NCBI GenBank assembly: GCA_028692875.1
Contig: JAQUWL010000004.1
Span: 1-64,000, forward strand
Origin: Sulfurospirillaceae bacterium
GTDB taxonomy: Bacteria; Campylobacterota; Campylobacteria; Campylobacterales; Sulfurospirillaceae
DNA: 64,000 nucleotides
Direction of reading: 5' to 3'
Shown here: positions 8,726 to 46,142 of the stretch, piece by piece
Position numbering within the stretch: the stretch's first letter is position 1
Layout: every line of letters begins with the position of its first letter
Program-made: the position numbers and the translations under genes
The notes under the pieces: model-generated
What the model saw: the letters and a program-made list of their open reading frames with translations, nothing else
Told to the model about the DNA's origin: nothing
Database searches by the model: none

Positions 8726-9436
8726 TTAGCTTCCTAAAATTTCTTTGAGTTTTTTGCCTTTTTTTGTAAACAATTTGCTATTTTTATCTTTACTGTGACT
8801 ATCTTGATCTGTTTTTTTATTTGCTTTTTCGCTTATAATTTCTTTATCTTTTTTAGAAAAACCTTTTTCTTTGAGATAACTTCGTAACTCTTTCCAGTCA
8901 CGATAACCATCAAAAATATCATCAACATTTTCATCTTCTTCTAAAACATCAACATCCTCATAGCCATCCACATCTTCACTTTTAAGCTGAGTATGGTTGG
9001 TATATGCAAAGGGATTTTTCATGGTTTGATTTTCACTAGATGCGTTAGCAATAATTGCTGGTCTGTTAGCCAAAGTCAAAATAGCTTTTAACTGCTCATC
9101 TCTCTCTTTGTAGATTGCCTCTATACGCTCTTTTGATTCAATCAAAAGACGCTCTTTATCCGCAATAAGACGATCTTTATCTTGCTCTAGTTGAATATTT
9201 TTTTGCTTTATTTCATCAAGCTGTGATTTCAATAACTCCACATAGGCATTTTCAGATGGTGATTCTACCTTGCGTGTGTTATTGCCCTCCCTGATGTTTC
9301 CTTTGGTTAAAACTACGTATTTTACGCCATTCTCAACGACTGTCTGTAAGGAGCCTCTTCTTATGCGATTGTATACCGCCTCTTTACTAACGCCTAAAAA
9401 TTTTGCAGCTTCGAGAACAGTGAATTTTTTTTCCAT
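8726..9436 (-). CDS. Helix-turn-helix / coiled-coil DNA-binding protein
   Basis: 236 residues from the ATG at 9436, which follows AAGGA; an in-frame ATG at 9457 lacks a ribosome site. Residues 1-45 look like an excisionase/MerR-type winged helix (FTVLEAAKFLGVSKEAVYNR). Residues about 65-125 are a long coiled coil (ELLKSQLDEIKQKNIQLEQ and following), then an acidic stretch (DEDENVDD) and a Lys-rich tail. The architecture suggests a dimeric DNA-binding or nucleoid-associated regulator rather than an enzyme. It heads the run toward yajQ and is preceded by the rpsU terminator. I do not recognise a named gene. Confidence 0.75.
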   Translation of the reverse strand: MEKKFTVLEAAKFLGVSKEAVYNRIRRGSLQTVVENGVKYVVLTKGNIREGNNTRKVESPSENAYVELLKSQLDEIKQKNIQLEQDKDRLIADKERLLIESKERIEAIYKERDEQLKAILTLANRPAIIANASSENQTMKNPFAYTNHTQLKSEDVDGYEDVDVLEEDENVDDIFDGYRDWKELRSYLKEKGFSKKDKEIISEKANKKTDQDSHSKDKNSKLFTKKGKKLKEILGS

Positions 9437-9526
9437 TTCATATCCTTTGAAAGACAAACAGTTATGTTATGTTAGCATAGGTTTGATTAGTTTAGTTTTA
9501 GAAGTGGGAAATGGTAGAAAAAAGTG

Positions 9527-9772: not shown

Positions 9773-9884
9773 ACTCTATCACCGCCTTTCGATTAAATTA
9801 GGCGAGTATTTTATCGGATTATCCTTGCATGTAAGCTTAAGTAAAGATTTTACACTTATAATGACGATAAAATATATATAAGTA

Positions 9885-9914
9885 TTGACTTTTTACGTCA
9901 AAACAGTGTAAACT
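9885..9914 (+). promoter_or_regulatory. Promoter with TTGAC-N7-GTCAA palindrome upstream of the recombinase-like gene
   Basis: TTGACT (9885-9890) and TAAACT (9909-9914) are 18 bp apart, a plausible sigma-70 promoter for the gene at 9943. The -35 box is one arm of an inverted repeat TTGAC (9885-9889) / GTCAA (9897-9901). Two direct TGACA copies follow just before the start codon (about 9924-9941). The palindrome is a candidate operator; the regulator is unknown, possibly the gene's own product. Confidence 0.5.
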
Positions 9915-9942
9915 ATCAATCTTGTGACAAAAAGGTGACATT

Positions 9943-10614
9943 ATGACTATTGTTCTTCTTAAAAATAGGCTTGACACAACGACTGCTACATCGCAACAAA
10001 AACAGATTTTGAGATATGCACATGCTCATTTTTTAACAATAAACGCAACAGAGATAGAGAACTCAAAATCCTCTGCTCCAATAGAGGAAAGAAGAGAGTT
10101 AAAAGGTTTTTTGAGATCGCTTGAAAACAAAGACAATCTTTTAATTTATGACATAGAAACACTTTCAGAAAATATAGATGACCTTATAAAAATATTTGAA
10201 TGTCTTTTTTCTCGCTCTATAAGCATCCATGTCGTCAGCGAAAATAGGCTATTAAATGCCAAAACAAGTGCCTTAGATATCTTAGAGGTTCTTAGCAAAA
10301 AGAGAAGTTTGGCAAAAAAATCACAACAAGACAAATCAAAAGGAAGACCAAAAGGAAGAATGTCAAAATCAAAATTTGACGTCCTAAGACCAAAAGTTAT
10401 AAAGCTCTTGGAAGAAAATTTTTCCGTAAACGAAATAGCTAAGCAATTAGAAGTTAGAAGAAGTTCACTGAAAGACTATATCCATTCTAGGGGCTTAAAA
10501 GAGTTGGCAAAAGTTAAAAACTCTATTTTAGAACCATCCAAAATAAAAACACTCGAAAAAAAAACTCCCTCTTACTGTTCCCTTATAGACGATAAAATAA
10601 ACAATAAGGAATAA
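9943..10614 (+). CDS. Serine-recombinase-like protein with degenerate catalytic domain and HTH (putative regulator)
   Basis: 223 residues. The N-terminal 110 residues follow the outline of a resolvase/invertase domain: RLDTTTATSQQKQI where recombinases have the R-V-S-T--Q motif, and LLIYDIETLSENIDDLIKI where they have WKLDRLGRSL--L. The catalytic serine and the Arg pair of the RLxRS motif are missing. Residues about 125-180 are a recombinase-type helix-turn-helix (KGRPKGRMSKSKFD, then SVNEIAKQLEVRRSSLKDY). I infer a catalytically dead recombinase fold used for DNA binding. It ends 2 bp before ccoG, so the two are one operon. A weakly active recombinase is the alternative but unlikely. Confidence 0.78.
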   Translation: MTIVLLKNRLDTTTATSQQKQILRYAHAHFLTINATEIENSKSSAPIEERRELKGFLRSLENKDNLLIYDIETLSENIDDLIKIFECLFSRSISIHVVSENRLLNAKTSALDILEVLSKKRSLAKKSQQDKSKGRPKGRMSKSKFDVLRPKVIKLLEENFSVNEIAKQLEVRRSSLKDYIHSRGLKELAKVKNSILEPSKIKTLEKKTPSYCSLIDDKINNKE

Positions 10615-10616
10615 AT

Positions 10617-11960
10617 ATGGAAAAGAATAGTCAACCATCTAATTTCAAACAAAAAAGATATTTAATTTTTTTGATTATAACTTTTATTTCGCTTCTTTTA
10701 CCCTTTGCTAAATTAGATGGCAAGCATTTTTTTCTGCTTAGTTTTGACAAAAAACAGCTACATTTTTTCTTTACGGTATTTGACATGCAAGAGCTTTATC
10801 TTATGCCATTTTTATTGATTTTTATGTTTTTGGGTATTTTCTTTATGACCACCTTAGGCGGAAGAGTGTGGTGCGGATGGTCGTGTCCTCAAACTATTTT
10901 TAGAACAATTTATAGAGATTTGATACAGACTTATCTTCTTAAAATTCGCAAAAACTCCAAAAATAAGCAACTTCCAGAGACCGAAGGGCAATTTTTAAAA
11001 AAAACTGTCGCCATACTTATTTGGTCGACTCTTTCTTTGGTGGCATCTGCAAACTTTATGTGGTACTTCATCCCTCCCGAAGATTTTTTCGCTTACATAT
11101 TAAAGCCTCAAGAACATATTGTTTTGGTGGTTTTCTTGTTAAGTATCGCACTTTTTTTGATATATGATGCTGTGTTGCTTAAAGAGGATTTTTGTATTTA
11201 TGTATGTCCGTACGCTAGAGTTCAGTCCGTTCTTTTTGACAATGACACACTTCAGACTATTTACGATACTCAAAGAGGCGGAAAGATTTATGATGAACAT
11301 GGGGTAAAGCTTTGGAGTAAGCCTCAAGGAAATAACGATGAATGCACAGGATGTGAGGCATGCGTTAGGGTTTGCCCTACACATATAGATATAAGAAAGG
11401 GGATGCAGCTTGAGTGTATAAATTGTCTTGAGTGTGCAGATGCTTGTGCTCCCATTATGGCAAAATTTAACAAGCCATCTCTTATTTCGTGGACAAGCAC
11501 CAACGCAGTAGAAAAAGGACAAAAAACAGAGTTTGTTCGATTTAGAACTATTGCTTATGCTATTGCTCTTGTGTGTGCTCTTGCTATGCTTGTGGTCTTA
11601 GGAAGCAATAAAGAGCATATGTTGCTTAATATAAACAGAACAACCCAACTCTACAAAATCAACAAAGACGAAAGCGTAGATAACATTTATACTTTTTTAT
11701 TCCAAAATACAGATGCGAAGAAACACACCTATTTTTTTGAGGTAGACAATAAAGATATTGCCCTCAAACAACCATCCGCTCCTTTTTCTATAAAATCTGG
11801 GGAAAAGGTAAAGAAAATAGTAGTTTTGTCTAGCAAAAGGGCCTTAGAGTCACAAGAAAAAGAGATTGCTTTAAAGATAACTGCTTTTGCAACAGATGAT
11901 AAAGAGAAGATAAAAATACAAAGAGAGACAACTTTTATATATCCGAAAAAATTGCCATAA
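10617..11960 (+). CDS. ccoG: CcoG, cbb3 cytochrome oxidase accessory ferredoxin-like protein
   Basis: 447 residues. Several membrane segments lie in the first half (about 15-33, 55-80, 125-145, 165-185) and one near 310-330. The conserved GRVWCGWSCPQT motif follows the second. The polyferredoxin part carries two [4Fe-4S] motifs, CTGCEACVRVCP and CINCLECADACAP (about 240-280). The C-terminal 110 residues form a periplasmic Ig-like domain (IgA/FixG type). CcoG is a copper-reducing assembly factor for cbb3-type oxidase. The oxidase genes are not in the window. A strong terminator follows. Confidence 0.95.
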   Translation: MEKNSQPSNFKQKRYLIFLIITFISLLLPFAKLDGKHFFLLSFDKKQLHFFFTVFDMQELYLMPFLLIFMFLGIFFMTTLGGRVWCGWSCPQTIFRTIYRDLIQTYLLKIRKNSKNKQLPETEGQFLKKTVAILIWSTLSLVASANFMWYFIPPEDFFAYILKPQEHIVLVVFLLSIALFLIYDAVLLKEDFCIYVCPYARVQSVLFDNDTLQTIYDTQRGGKIYDEHGVKLWSKPQGNNDECTGCEACVRVCPTHIDIRKGMQLECINCLECADACAPIMAKFNKPSLISWTSTNAVEKGQKTEFVRFRTIAYAIALVCALAMLVVLGSNKEHMLLNINRTTQLYKINKDESVDNIYTFLFQNTDAKKHTYFFEVDNKDIALKQPSAPFSIKSGEKVKKIVVLSSKRALESQEKEIALKITAFATDDKEKIKIQRETTFIYPKKLP

Positions 11961-44036: not shown

Positions 44037-46142
44037 ATGCTTACCAAAGTTCTCAAACGTGACGGAGTTACAGAAGAGTTTCAGCCCTACAAAATAGAAG
44101 ATGCCATCAAAAAAGCCTTTAAAAGCGAAGATGTCAACTATGATGAAAATATCTTCAAAAATATTCTCAAACGACTAGAGACAAAACGTGTAGCTGCCGT
44201 TGAAGACTTTCAAGACATGATAGAGCAAGAGCTTTACAAGGCTCGCTATTTTGATGTTATGCGTTCATTTATGCTCTACCGCCACACACACAAAATGCAA
44301 AGAGAGCATATCGCTGGTCTAAATGATGATACGACTTACATCAATTCTACACAAACTATCGAAGAGTATATTGGCAAAAGCGACTGGAGAATTAAAGCCA
44401 ATTCAAACACAGGCTACTCAAATGCAGGTCTTGTAAACAATACCGCTGGCAAAGTTATCGCAAACTATTGGCTAGATAAAATCTACTCAAAAGAAGAGGG
44501 CTTGGCACATCGAAACGGGGATTATCATATTCACGACCTAGATTGCTTAACTGCATATTGTGCGGGCTGGAGTCTTAGGGTTTTGCTTGATGAGGGCTTC
44601 AACGGCGTAAGAGGCAGAGTTGAAAGTCGTCCTCCTATGCACTTTAGAGAAGCTCTTGGTCAAATGGCAAACTTTTTGGGAATTTTACAGAGCGAGTGGG
44701 CTGGAGCACAAGCATTTAGTTCATTTGACACATATTTAGCACCTTATGTATTTAAAGATAAAATTTCGTACAAAGAGATAAAAAAAGCTATCCGCAGTTT
44801 TGTCTACAATCTTAATGTTCCTGCACGATGGGGTCAGAGTCCTTTTACAAACATCACGATTGACTGGACGGTTCCTAGCGATTTGGCAACCCAAATACCA
44901 ACCTCTAGCCAGATGCACCTGTTTAAAAATATTGAAGATGAAGAACTTGTGGAAGAGGCGAAAAAAAGAGGAGCCTCATCACTGGAGGCTATGACATACA
45001 AACATTTTCAAAAAGAGATGAATCTTATCAACAAAGCTTACTACGAAGTTATGACCGAGGGCGACAAAACAGGACAACCATTTACTTTTCCAATTCCTAC
45101 CGTAAACATAACAGAAGATTTTGATTGGGATGGCGAAAATAGTGATTTGCTCTTTGAAAATACCGCCAAAATAGGCTCATCATATTTTCAAAATTTTATA
45201 GGCAGTCAATACATCAGAAACTCCGAAGGAAAACTTGTTGAAAATCCAAAAGCTTATAAGCCTGGGCATGTAAGAAGCATGTGTTGTCGTTTGCAACTAG
45301 ATTTGAGGGAGCTTTTAAAGCGTGGCGGTGGACTTTTTGGAAGTGCCGAGATGACAGGAAGTATTGGCGTTGTAACTATTAACATGGCACGACTTGGATA
45401 TCTCTATAAAGGCGACAAAGCAAAGCTTATGGAAGAGTTTGAAAAGTTGATGGAGCTTGCAAAATCAACTTTAGAGAAAAAAAGGGTATTTGTTCAAGAT
45501 ATGTACAATCGTGGGCTTTATCCTTATACGGCACGTTATTTGCCAGGATTTAACAATCACTTTTCAACTATCGGAGTTAATGGAATTAACGAGATGGTAC
45601 GTAATTTCACTGAAGATAAACACAATATTGCCGATAATTATGGAATGGAATTTGCTCACGAAATATTAGAGTTTGTACGTAATAAAATGGTTCATTATCA
45701 AGAAGAGACAGGGAATCTATACAACCTTGAAGCAACTCCAGCAGAAGGAACAACTTATAGGTTTGCCAAAGAGGATAAAAAGAGATATCCTGAGATGATT
45801 CAAGCAGGAAATGGTAAAAATATTTACTATACCAACTCATCTCAACTTCCTGCAGATTATACCGATGATCCATTTGAGGCGTTGGATTTGCAAGATGACT
45901 TGCAATGCTCATACACGGGGGGAACAGTACTTCACCTATATATGAGAGAGAGAATAAGCTCAAGCGAAGCATGTAAGAAACTTGTAAAACAGGTTATTAC
46001 AAATTATAGATTGCCATACTTGACGATTACACCAGTTTTTTCAGTGTGTGAGAAACATGGCTACATAAGTGGCGAGCATGAATTTTGTCCAAAGTGTGAT
46101 GAAGAGTTAATAGAAAAAATCAAAAAAGGAGAAGACAAATGA
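44037..46142 (+). CDS. nrdD: Class III (anaerobic) ribonucleoside-triphosphate reductase, lacking its glycyl-radical loop
   Basis: 701 residues. ATP-cone at 1-90, then the PFL-like barrel: GWSLRVLLDEGFNG, VPARWGQSPFTNI, MCCRLQLDLREL and YTGGTVLHLYM. The C terminus stops after a zinc-finger-like CEKHGYISGEHEFCPKC and a short charged tail. The expected glycyl-radical segment (R--GY-RPV--N-GK) is absent from this chain and is encoded by the next gene, which overlaps by ATGA. It reduces NTPs under anaerobic conditions once activated by NrdG. No frameshift error is needed to explain the stop. Confidence 0.93.
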   Translation: MLTKVLKRDGVTEEFQPYKIEDAIKKAFKSEDVNYDENIFKNILKRLETKRVAAVEDFQDMIEQELYKARYFDVMRSFMLYRHTHKMQREHIAGLNDDTTYINSTQTIEEYIGKSDWRIKANSNTGYSNAGLVNNTAGKVIANYWLDKIYSKEEGLAHRNGDYHIHDLDCLTAYCAGWSLRVLLDEGFNGVRGRVESRPPMHFREALGQMANFLGILQSEWAGAQAFSSFDTYLAPYVFKDKISYKEIKKAIRSFVYNLNVPARWGQSPFTNITIDWTVPSDLATQIPTSSQMHLFKNIEDEELVEEAKKRGASSLEAMTYKHFQKEMNLINKAYYEVMTEGDKTGQPFTFPIPTVNITEDFDWDGENSDLLFENTAKIGSSYFQNFIGSQYIRNSEGKLVENPKAYKPGHVRSMCCRLQLDLRELLKRGGGLFGSAEMTGSIGVVTINMARLGYLYKGDKAKLMEEFEKLMELAKSTLEKKRVFVQDMYNRGLYPYTARYLPGFNNHFSTIGVNGINEMVRNFTEDKHNIADNYGMEFAHEILEFVRNKMVHYQEETGNLYNLEATPAEGTTYRFAKEDKKRYPEMIQAGNGKNIYYTNSSQLPADYTDDPFEALDLQDDLQCSYTGGTVLHLYMRERISSSEACKKLVKQVITNYRLPYLTITPVFSVCEKHGYISGEHEFCPKCDEELIEKIKKGEDK

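Follow-up and report, generated by a model that had tools for sequence, protein, structure and literature searches.

A catalytically dead serine-recombinase-like protein encoded upstream of ccoG as a candidate regulator of respiratory-oxidase genes in Campylobacterota

The recombinase-ccoG locus

The window, by which we mean the whole stretch of 64,000 nucleotides that was analysed, contains a gene for a serine-recombinase-like protein immediately in front of ccoG, and its promoter is overlapped by a long inverted repeat. The features are as follows.

9861-9901, no strand: 41-bp inverted repeat (dyad), candidate operator, with arms ATGACGATAAAA and TTTTTACGTCAA
9885-9914, + strand: sigma70-type promoter TTGACT-18-TAAACT, within and just 3' of the dyad
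9925-9940, + strand: Shine-Dalgarno region TGACAAAAAGGTGACA, containing the TGACA repeats of the first-pass annotation
9943-10614, + strand: serine-recombinase-like gene (223 aa, PF00239 match), apparently catalytically dead, proposed regulator
10201-10203, + strand: codon of invariant Cys87, in the helix after the former active-site loop
10342-10359, + strand: GRPKGR, an AT-hook-like arm as in the minor-groove arms of resolvases and invertases
10378-10488, + strand: predicted C-terminal helix-turn-helix (HTH), AlphaFold2 (AF2) helices 146-157, 162-169 and 173-182
10576-10578, + strand: codon of invariant Cys212, in a C-terminal tail that is otherwise variable
10617-11960, + strand: ccoG, cbb3 oxidase assembly factor of the cupric reductase family (TIGR02745)

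The recombinase-like reading frame of 223 codons starts with ATG at 9943 and stops at 10614, leaving 2 bp before the ccoG start at 10617. The ccoG product matches NCBIfam TIGR02745 at 2.4e-149 (498 bits), and the CcoG protein serves the assembly of cbb3 oxidase as a cupric reductase (PMC8267372). The first-pass annotation had placed the two genes in one operon, which agrees with the short gap and with the arrangement in other genomes: among 80 loci sampled from Sulfurospirillum, Sulfurovum, Nitratiruptor, Nitratifractor, Hydrogenimonas and uncultured relatives, ccoG lies directly downstream in all 76 in which the contig continues, the remaining four stopping at a contig edge, and the gap between the genes ranges from -25 to +77 bp. 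A second sample, of families, gave the same pairing in every family that has the gene except f18, so that, judged from gene order, the pairing with ccoG appears obligatory outside that family. The protein was matched in 48 of 60 relatives, a few of the matches being weak paralogues. In an order-wide sample of 150 genomes, about 59 have orthologues at E below 1e-40, far fewer than the genomes that have ccoG. Judged by its close named relatives, the genome of the window belongs in or near the Sulfurospirillaceae.

Further downstream, the order recombinase, ccoG and a gene that we call SQR-like, a label that denotes family resemblance below the NCBIfam cut-off and does not prove function, is found in 20 of the 67 loci with room for it, and one genome (G071) carries recombinase, ccoG, NifX, SQR-like and cydA genes in one row. 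The neighbours of the f18 regulator in G084 include genes for Sco and for the copper chaperone PCuAC.

Several side observations concern these neighbourhoods. Three genomes have two ccoG copies with 97.7-99.8% identity that extends over no more than about 1.4 kb (L219/L220 in G054, L221/L222 in G039 and L223/L224 in G071), one copy lying behind the recombinase-like gene and the other elsewhere, in G054 in a cco oxidase operon; it seems that duplication or gene conversion took place recently. At G074:C1:40634-41420 (L255), the ccoG beside the recombinase-like gene is apparently fragmented, and the same genome has an intact ccoG at another place. Upstream in the window, on the opposite strand, 8726-9439 encodes a protein with a predicted N-terminal MerR/excisionase-like HTH that scores below the cut-off.

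A recombinase fold without its active site

The resolvase-like layout claimed by the first-pass annotation is borne out by profile and structure. Pfam PF00239 is matched at 35.4 bits (cut-off 23.3, E 1.4e-8), and the AF2 model of the 223-aa protein, with a mean pLDDT of 82, finds its top PDB folds by Foldseek in the Tn3/gamma-delta resolvase and Sin, serine recombinases being best. The model also matches the catalytic domain of TP901-1 integrase; the structural matches have E values of 1e-7 to 1e-5, and their low whole-chain TM scores are expected where the domain arrangement differs. PPR and CAP-repeat matches in the PDB sequence search were set aside as repeat-protein artefacts. Behind the GRPKGR arm, whose role in the minor groove we presume from gamma-delta and Hin, helices are predicted for the C-terminal HTH, which Pfam HTH_7 matches at 13.8 bits, under its cut-off of 23.8. 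The GRPKG arm is invariant in our alignment A1, and of the 19 columns that are invariant among 30 diverse sequences the majority fall in the DNA-binding half.

The catalytic residues have fared differently. With gamma-delta resolvase as the active-site reference, we compared 123 ccoG-linked rows, which comprise 97 distinct sequences from two overlapping samples. None has serine at S10, where K, R or M mostly stands, none has arginine at R68, and only 3 have it at R71, the window protein carrying T and E at these two arginine positions of the RLxR motif; the equivalents of R8 and R45 stay R or K in nearly all rows. The lack of the serine and the RLxRS arginines had been noted from the window alone; it holds throughout the ccoG-linked set but for the 3 rows with arginine at R71. 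A catalytic serine hidden by misalignment was considered and ruled out; serines in adjacent columns are scattered and unconserved. L049, an unlinked invertase of a relative, keeps S10, R68 and R71, and the dead proteins group on a single branch (support 95/97) that excludes gamma-delta resolvase, L049 and L048, the outgroup branches being long. By these residues, the active site is dead across the ccoG-linked family while fold, arm and predicted HTH are kept. Beside this family, L048 (G044) and similar matches in f9 make up a second, separate recombinase-like family that does not lie beside ccoG and whose active site is apparently altered, possibly another domestication.

Cys87 and Cys212 are each cysteine in 123 of 123 ccoG-linked rows, the latter within a tail that is otherwise unalignable; these likely sensing residues had escaped the first-pass annotation. 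In the f18 proteins position 87 is changed and the tail is truncated, and both cysteines are absent at these positions. That f18 lacks both together suggests a coupled pair and, from that, a switch responsive to redox state, persulfide or Cu(I), which Cys87 and Cys212 probably form on this comparative evidence. Two f18 variants, L044 (G053) and L251:1510-2061 (G084), have tails that end at the same point and share two other cysteines (CEILC); they keep the dyad and do not lie beside ccoG.

A 41-bp dyad that accompanies the gene

The first-pass annotation had proposed a palindromic operator, TTGAC-N7-GTCAA, together with the TGACA repeats. The palindrome is present exactly at 9885-9901 (0.07 expected per window) but consists of the -35 hexamer plus one arm of a larger element, and we rejected it as the operator because its inner TTGAC is the -35 box, and about 10 of 79 relatives have lost this box but still carry the outer arms. 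A conserved dyad does exist; it is the 41-bp element at 9861-9901, which starts outside the stretch 9885-10614 that had been annotated. The TGACA repeats are likewise present, at 9925-9940, where AAAAAGGTGA represents Shine-Dalgarno context conserved only within its own family, and they too were rejected as an operator. The within-family conservation around the Shine-Dalgarno site is perhaps beyond the needs of ribosome binding.

Across the promoters of the order the dyad has the consensus TGACG-AT-tract ... AT-tract-CGTCA and spans 40-42 bp. It is present at 77 of the 80 sampled loci, with spans of 41, 40 and 42 bp in 58, 16 and 3 of them (spans of 26-59 were scanned). In the window it has the best weight-matrix score, 32.4, whereas 30 shuffled windows reach no more than 18.3; such scores are partly circular since the matrix was trained on the same loci. 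The pattern counts, whether order-wide, in the own genome or as chance expectation, were made without the matrix: 0.02 such dyads are expected per window, and the AT-armed dyad occurs once in the own genome and not at all in the reversed control. Its right arm sits between -35 and -10 and its left arm upstream of -35. A permutation test for covariation between the arms gave nothing significant. A weight-matrix site at 45130 (score 19.3), inside a long anaerobic-ribonucleotide-reductase-like reading frame, was taken as chance, as were loose-pattern dyads in G024 and G046 that are intragenic or have no AT arms.

The dyad appears to follow the gene. The ccoG loci without the recombinase-like gene that we checked have no dyad; in G001 the gene is a pseudogene and the dyad is gone, and G008 retains a decayed gene remnant with a half-decayed dyad, its right arm reading AAATCTA versus CGTCTA in close relatives, a change of CG to AA. 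In terms of inheritance, the dyad is passed on together with the gene and is absent or decayed without it, as far as these loci allow us to read.

In addition, detached dyads were found in families f7, f17 and f18, in genomes that all have the recombinase-like gene, and their targets are mostly respiratory or oxidase genes. They lie upstream of cydA or of a NifX-like gene followed by cydA (G125, G158, G042, G168, G053), upstream of a NifX-like gene (G084), and at -83 to -115 of a gene for an SQR-like pyridine nucleotide-disulfide oxidoreductase (G154, G108, G052, G076, G164), with what looks like a matching SQR-like locus in G168. A further dyad precedes a DUF6858 gene in G052; going by gene order without annotation, some relatives seem to have a DUF6858 gene upstream of cydA. 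Five f17 genomes (L163, L164, L165, L162, L072) also share a conserved AT-armed dyad close to and upstream of a gene for an M48 (Ste24/HtpX-like) peptidase. Of the SQR-like genes examined, 13 of 18 have no dyad, nor do most cydA genes of the Sulfurospirillum family, and in the own genome no target was found besides the recombinase-ccoG operon.

A possible regulator of aerobic respiration and its known counterparts

The first-pass annotation had suggested that an invertase domain was converted to regulatory use, with either oxidase assembly or its own gene under its control. Comparative evidence supports this suggestion, in that catalysis seems to be lost with fold and arm kept, ccoG remains the partner, the dyad tracks the gene, and further dyads occur at cytochrome bd and SQR-like genes. 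We consider it likely that a domesticated serine recombinase, no longer cutting DNA, serves as an autoregulatory transcription factor whose targets are respiratory-oxidase genes. Most likely, it regulates aerobic respiration in free-living Campylobacterota by sensing redox state or a metal. In the mechanism that we propose, a dimer would sit on the dyad at 9861-9901 as resolvase does on its crossover site, each HTH reading TGACG and each GRPKGR arm lying in the AT tract next to it. Given the place of the right arm between -35 and -10, binding would most simply block RNA polymerase and thus repress the recombinase-ccoG operon, and a switch formed by Cys87 in the former catalytic domain and Cys212 in the tail would probably release or reshape the dimer. 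We infer the binding, the repression and the cysteine switch with its signal from the comparison of genomes. More tentatively, and with somewhat less than even confidence, we speculate that a single inactivation of a recombinase gave rise to an order-wide family that senses redox state, persulfide or copper through Cys87 and Cys212, acts at 41-bp operators resembling crossover sites to keep the cbb3 and bd oxidases in balance with an SQR-like flavoprotein in free-living Campylobacterota, and takes the place of FNR and ArcA.

The same observations could be read in other ways. The protein might be a simple autorepressor that holds expression of the operon constant, with structural cysteines and no sensed signal, as the single AT-armed dyad in the own genome and the autorepression of TnpR-type resolvases, which involves no signal sensing, would allow; we think this rather unlikely in view of the two invariant cysteines, one of them in a tail that cannot otherwise be aligned, and of the extra dyads that other families have, mainly at genes for respiration or oxidases. 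A comparably low probability is given to a transcriptional activator or architectural protein that aids RNA polymerase by binding the upstream arm. The left arm upstream of -35 would suit such a role, and some relatives keep the dyad without a TTGAC -35 box, as activator-dependent promoters would, but the position of the right arm between -35 and -10 is typical of a repressor. It is more doubtful still that the dyad serves some unlinked regulator, with the recombinase-like protein doing something else, such as acting as a protein partner of CcoG. The dyad does lie in the promoter region like any operator, and its binding by the protein is deduced; however, it accompanies the gene and is lost or decayed without it, its arms resemble recombinase half-sites in joining a major-groove word to an AT tract, and conservation within the protein is highest at the GRPKG and HTH residues.

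Two remaining explanations seem hardly credible. A still active recombinase, using another nucleophile to invert or resolve DNA at the dyad, would be in keeping with the retained fold, arm and R8/R45 equivalents, but the nucleophile and the RLxR arginines are lost, the site is 41 bp long rather than 26-34 bp, no partner site for inversion was seen, and there is usually one site per genome; the single AT-armed site in the own genome argues against strand exchange at paired sites. Equally far-fetched is a functionless remnant of a mobile element, to which the resolvase homology and the decayed copies in G001 and G008 might point, since the reading frames are intact in many families of the order, residues, synteny and dyad are conserved, and the search of viral contigs for relatives yielded nothing beyond one weak match.

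Among known systems, the proposed autoregulator most resembles the Tn3/gamma-delta resolvase TnpR, with which it shares the fold and the succession of an N-terminal catalytic-like domain, a long helix, a DNA arm and, as predicted, a C-terminal HTH. The half-sites that TnpR binds at res are inverted and overlap the promoter of its own gene, whose transcription it represses, so that autorepression by a resolvase is in itself known. Unlike TnpR, the protein described here has neither the catalytic serine nor RLxR and has two invariant cysteines, its candidate site is a single one of 41 bp rather than a res array of 28/34/25 bp, and its partner is the cellular ccoG rather than tnpA. In NCBIfam, the best similarity is to Mpi-type DNA invertases (NF009949; 2.7e-13, 50 bits), which is far below the cut-off of 272 bits. 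With these and with active-looking Campylobacterota invertases such as L049 (G013) it shares the arm G(R/K)PKG-x-SK(F/Y)D, but it differs from them in the loss of the catalytic residues and in its separate branch (95/97). Hin-type serine recombinases, for their part, regulate through inversion (PMC8987985).

The thiol-switch repressors SqrR and BigR offer a comparison of working principle only, resting on two cysteines and on targets among which are respiration genes and an SQR-like flavoprotein; they are ArsR-type proteins, and their fold differs from that of serine recombinases. Both are sulfide/persulfide-responsive regulators (PMC5823870, PMC9143464). In the open-access literature we found no paper on a dead serine recombinase as a dedicated respiration regulator, nor any on ccoG with a resolvase in Epsilonproteobacteria or on ccoG in Sulfurospirillum, and a chromosomal family that has given up recombination while keeping the regulatory half, its own operator and respiratory targets thus appears to be undescribed in the literature searched. 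Regulators of the FNR, ArcA and NarP type are similar in the proposed control of oxidase genes and unrelated in fold, and according to a review no orthologues of ArcA, FNR or NarP are encoded in Campylobacterota (PMC6682613). As FNR and ArcA are reported absent, the recombinase-like protein is a testable candidate for a missing regulator. It is conserved, and its defined 41-bp site, two testable cysteines and fixed partner gene open the question of the oxygen/redox regulator to direct tests in laboratory strains of Sulfurospirillum.
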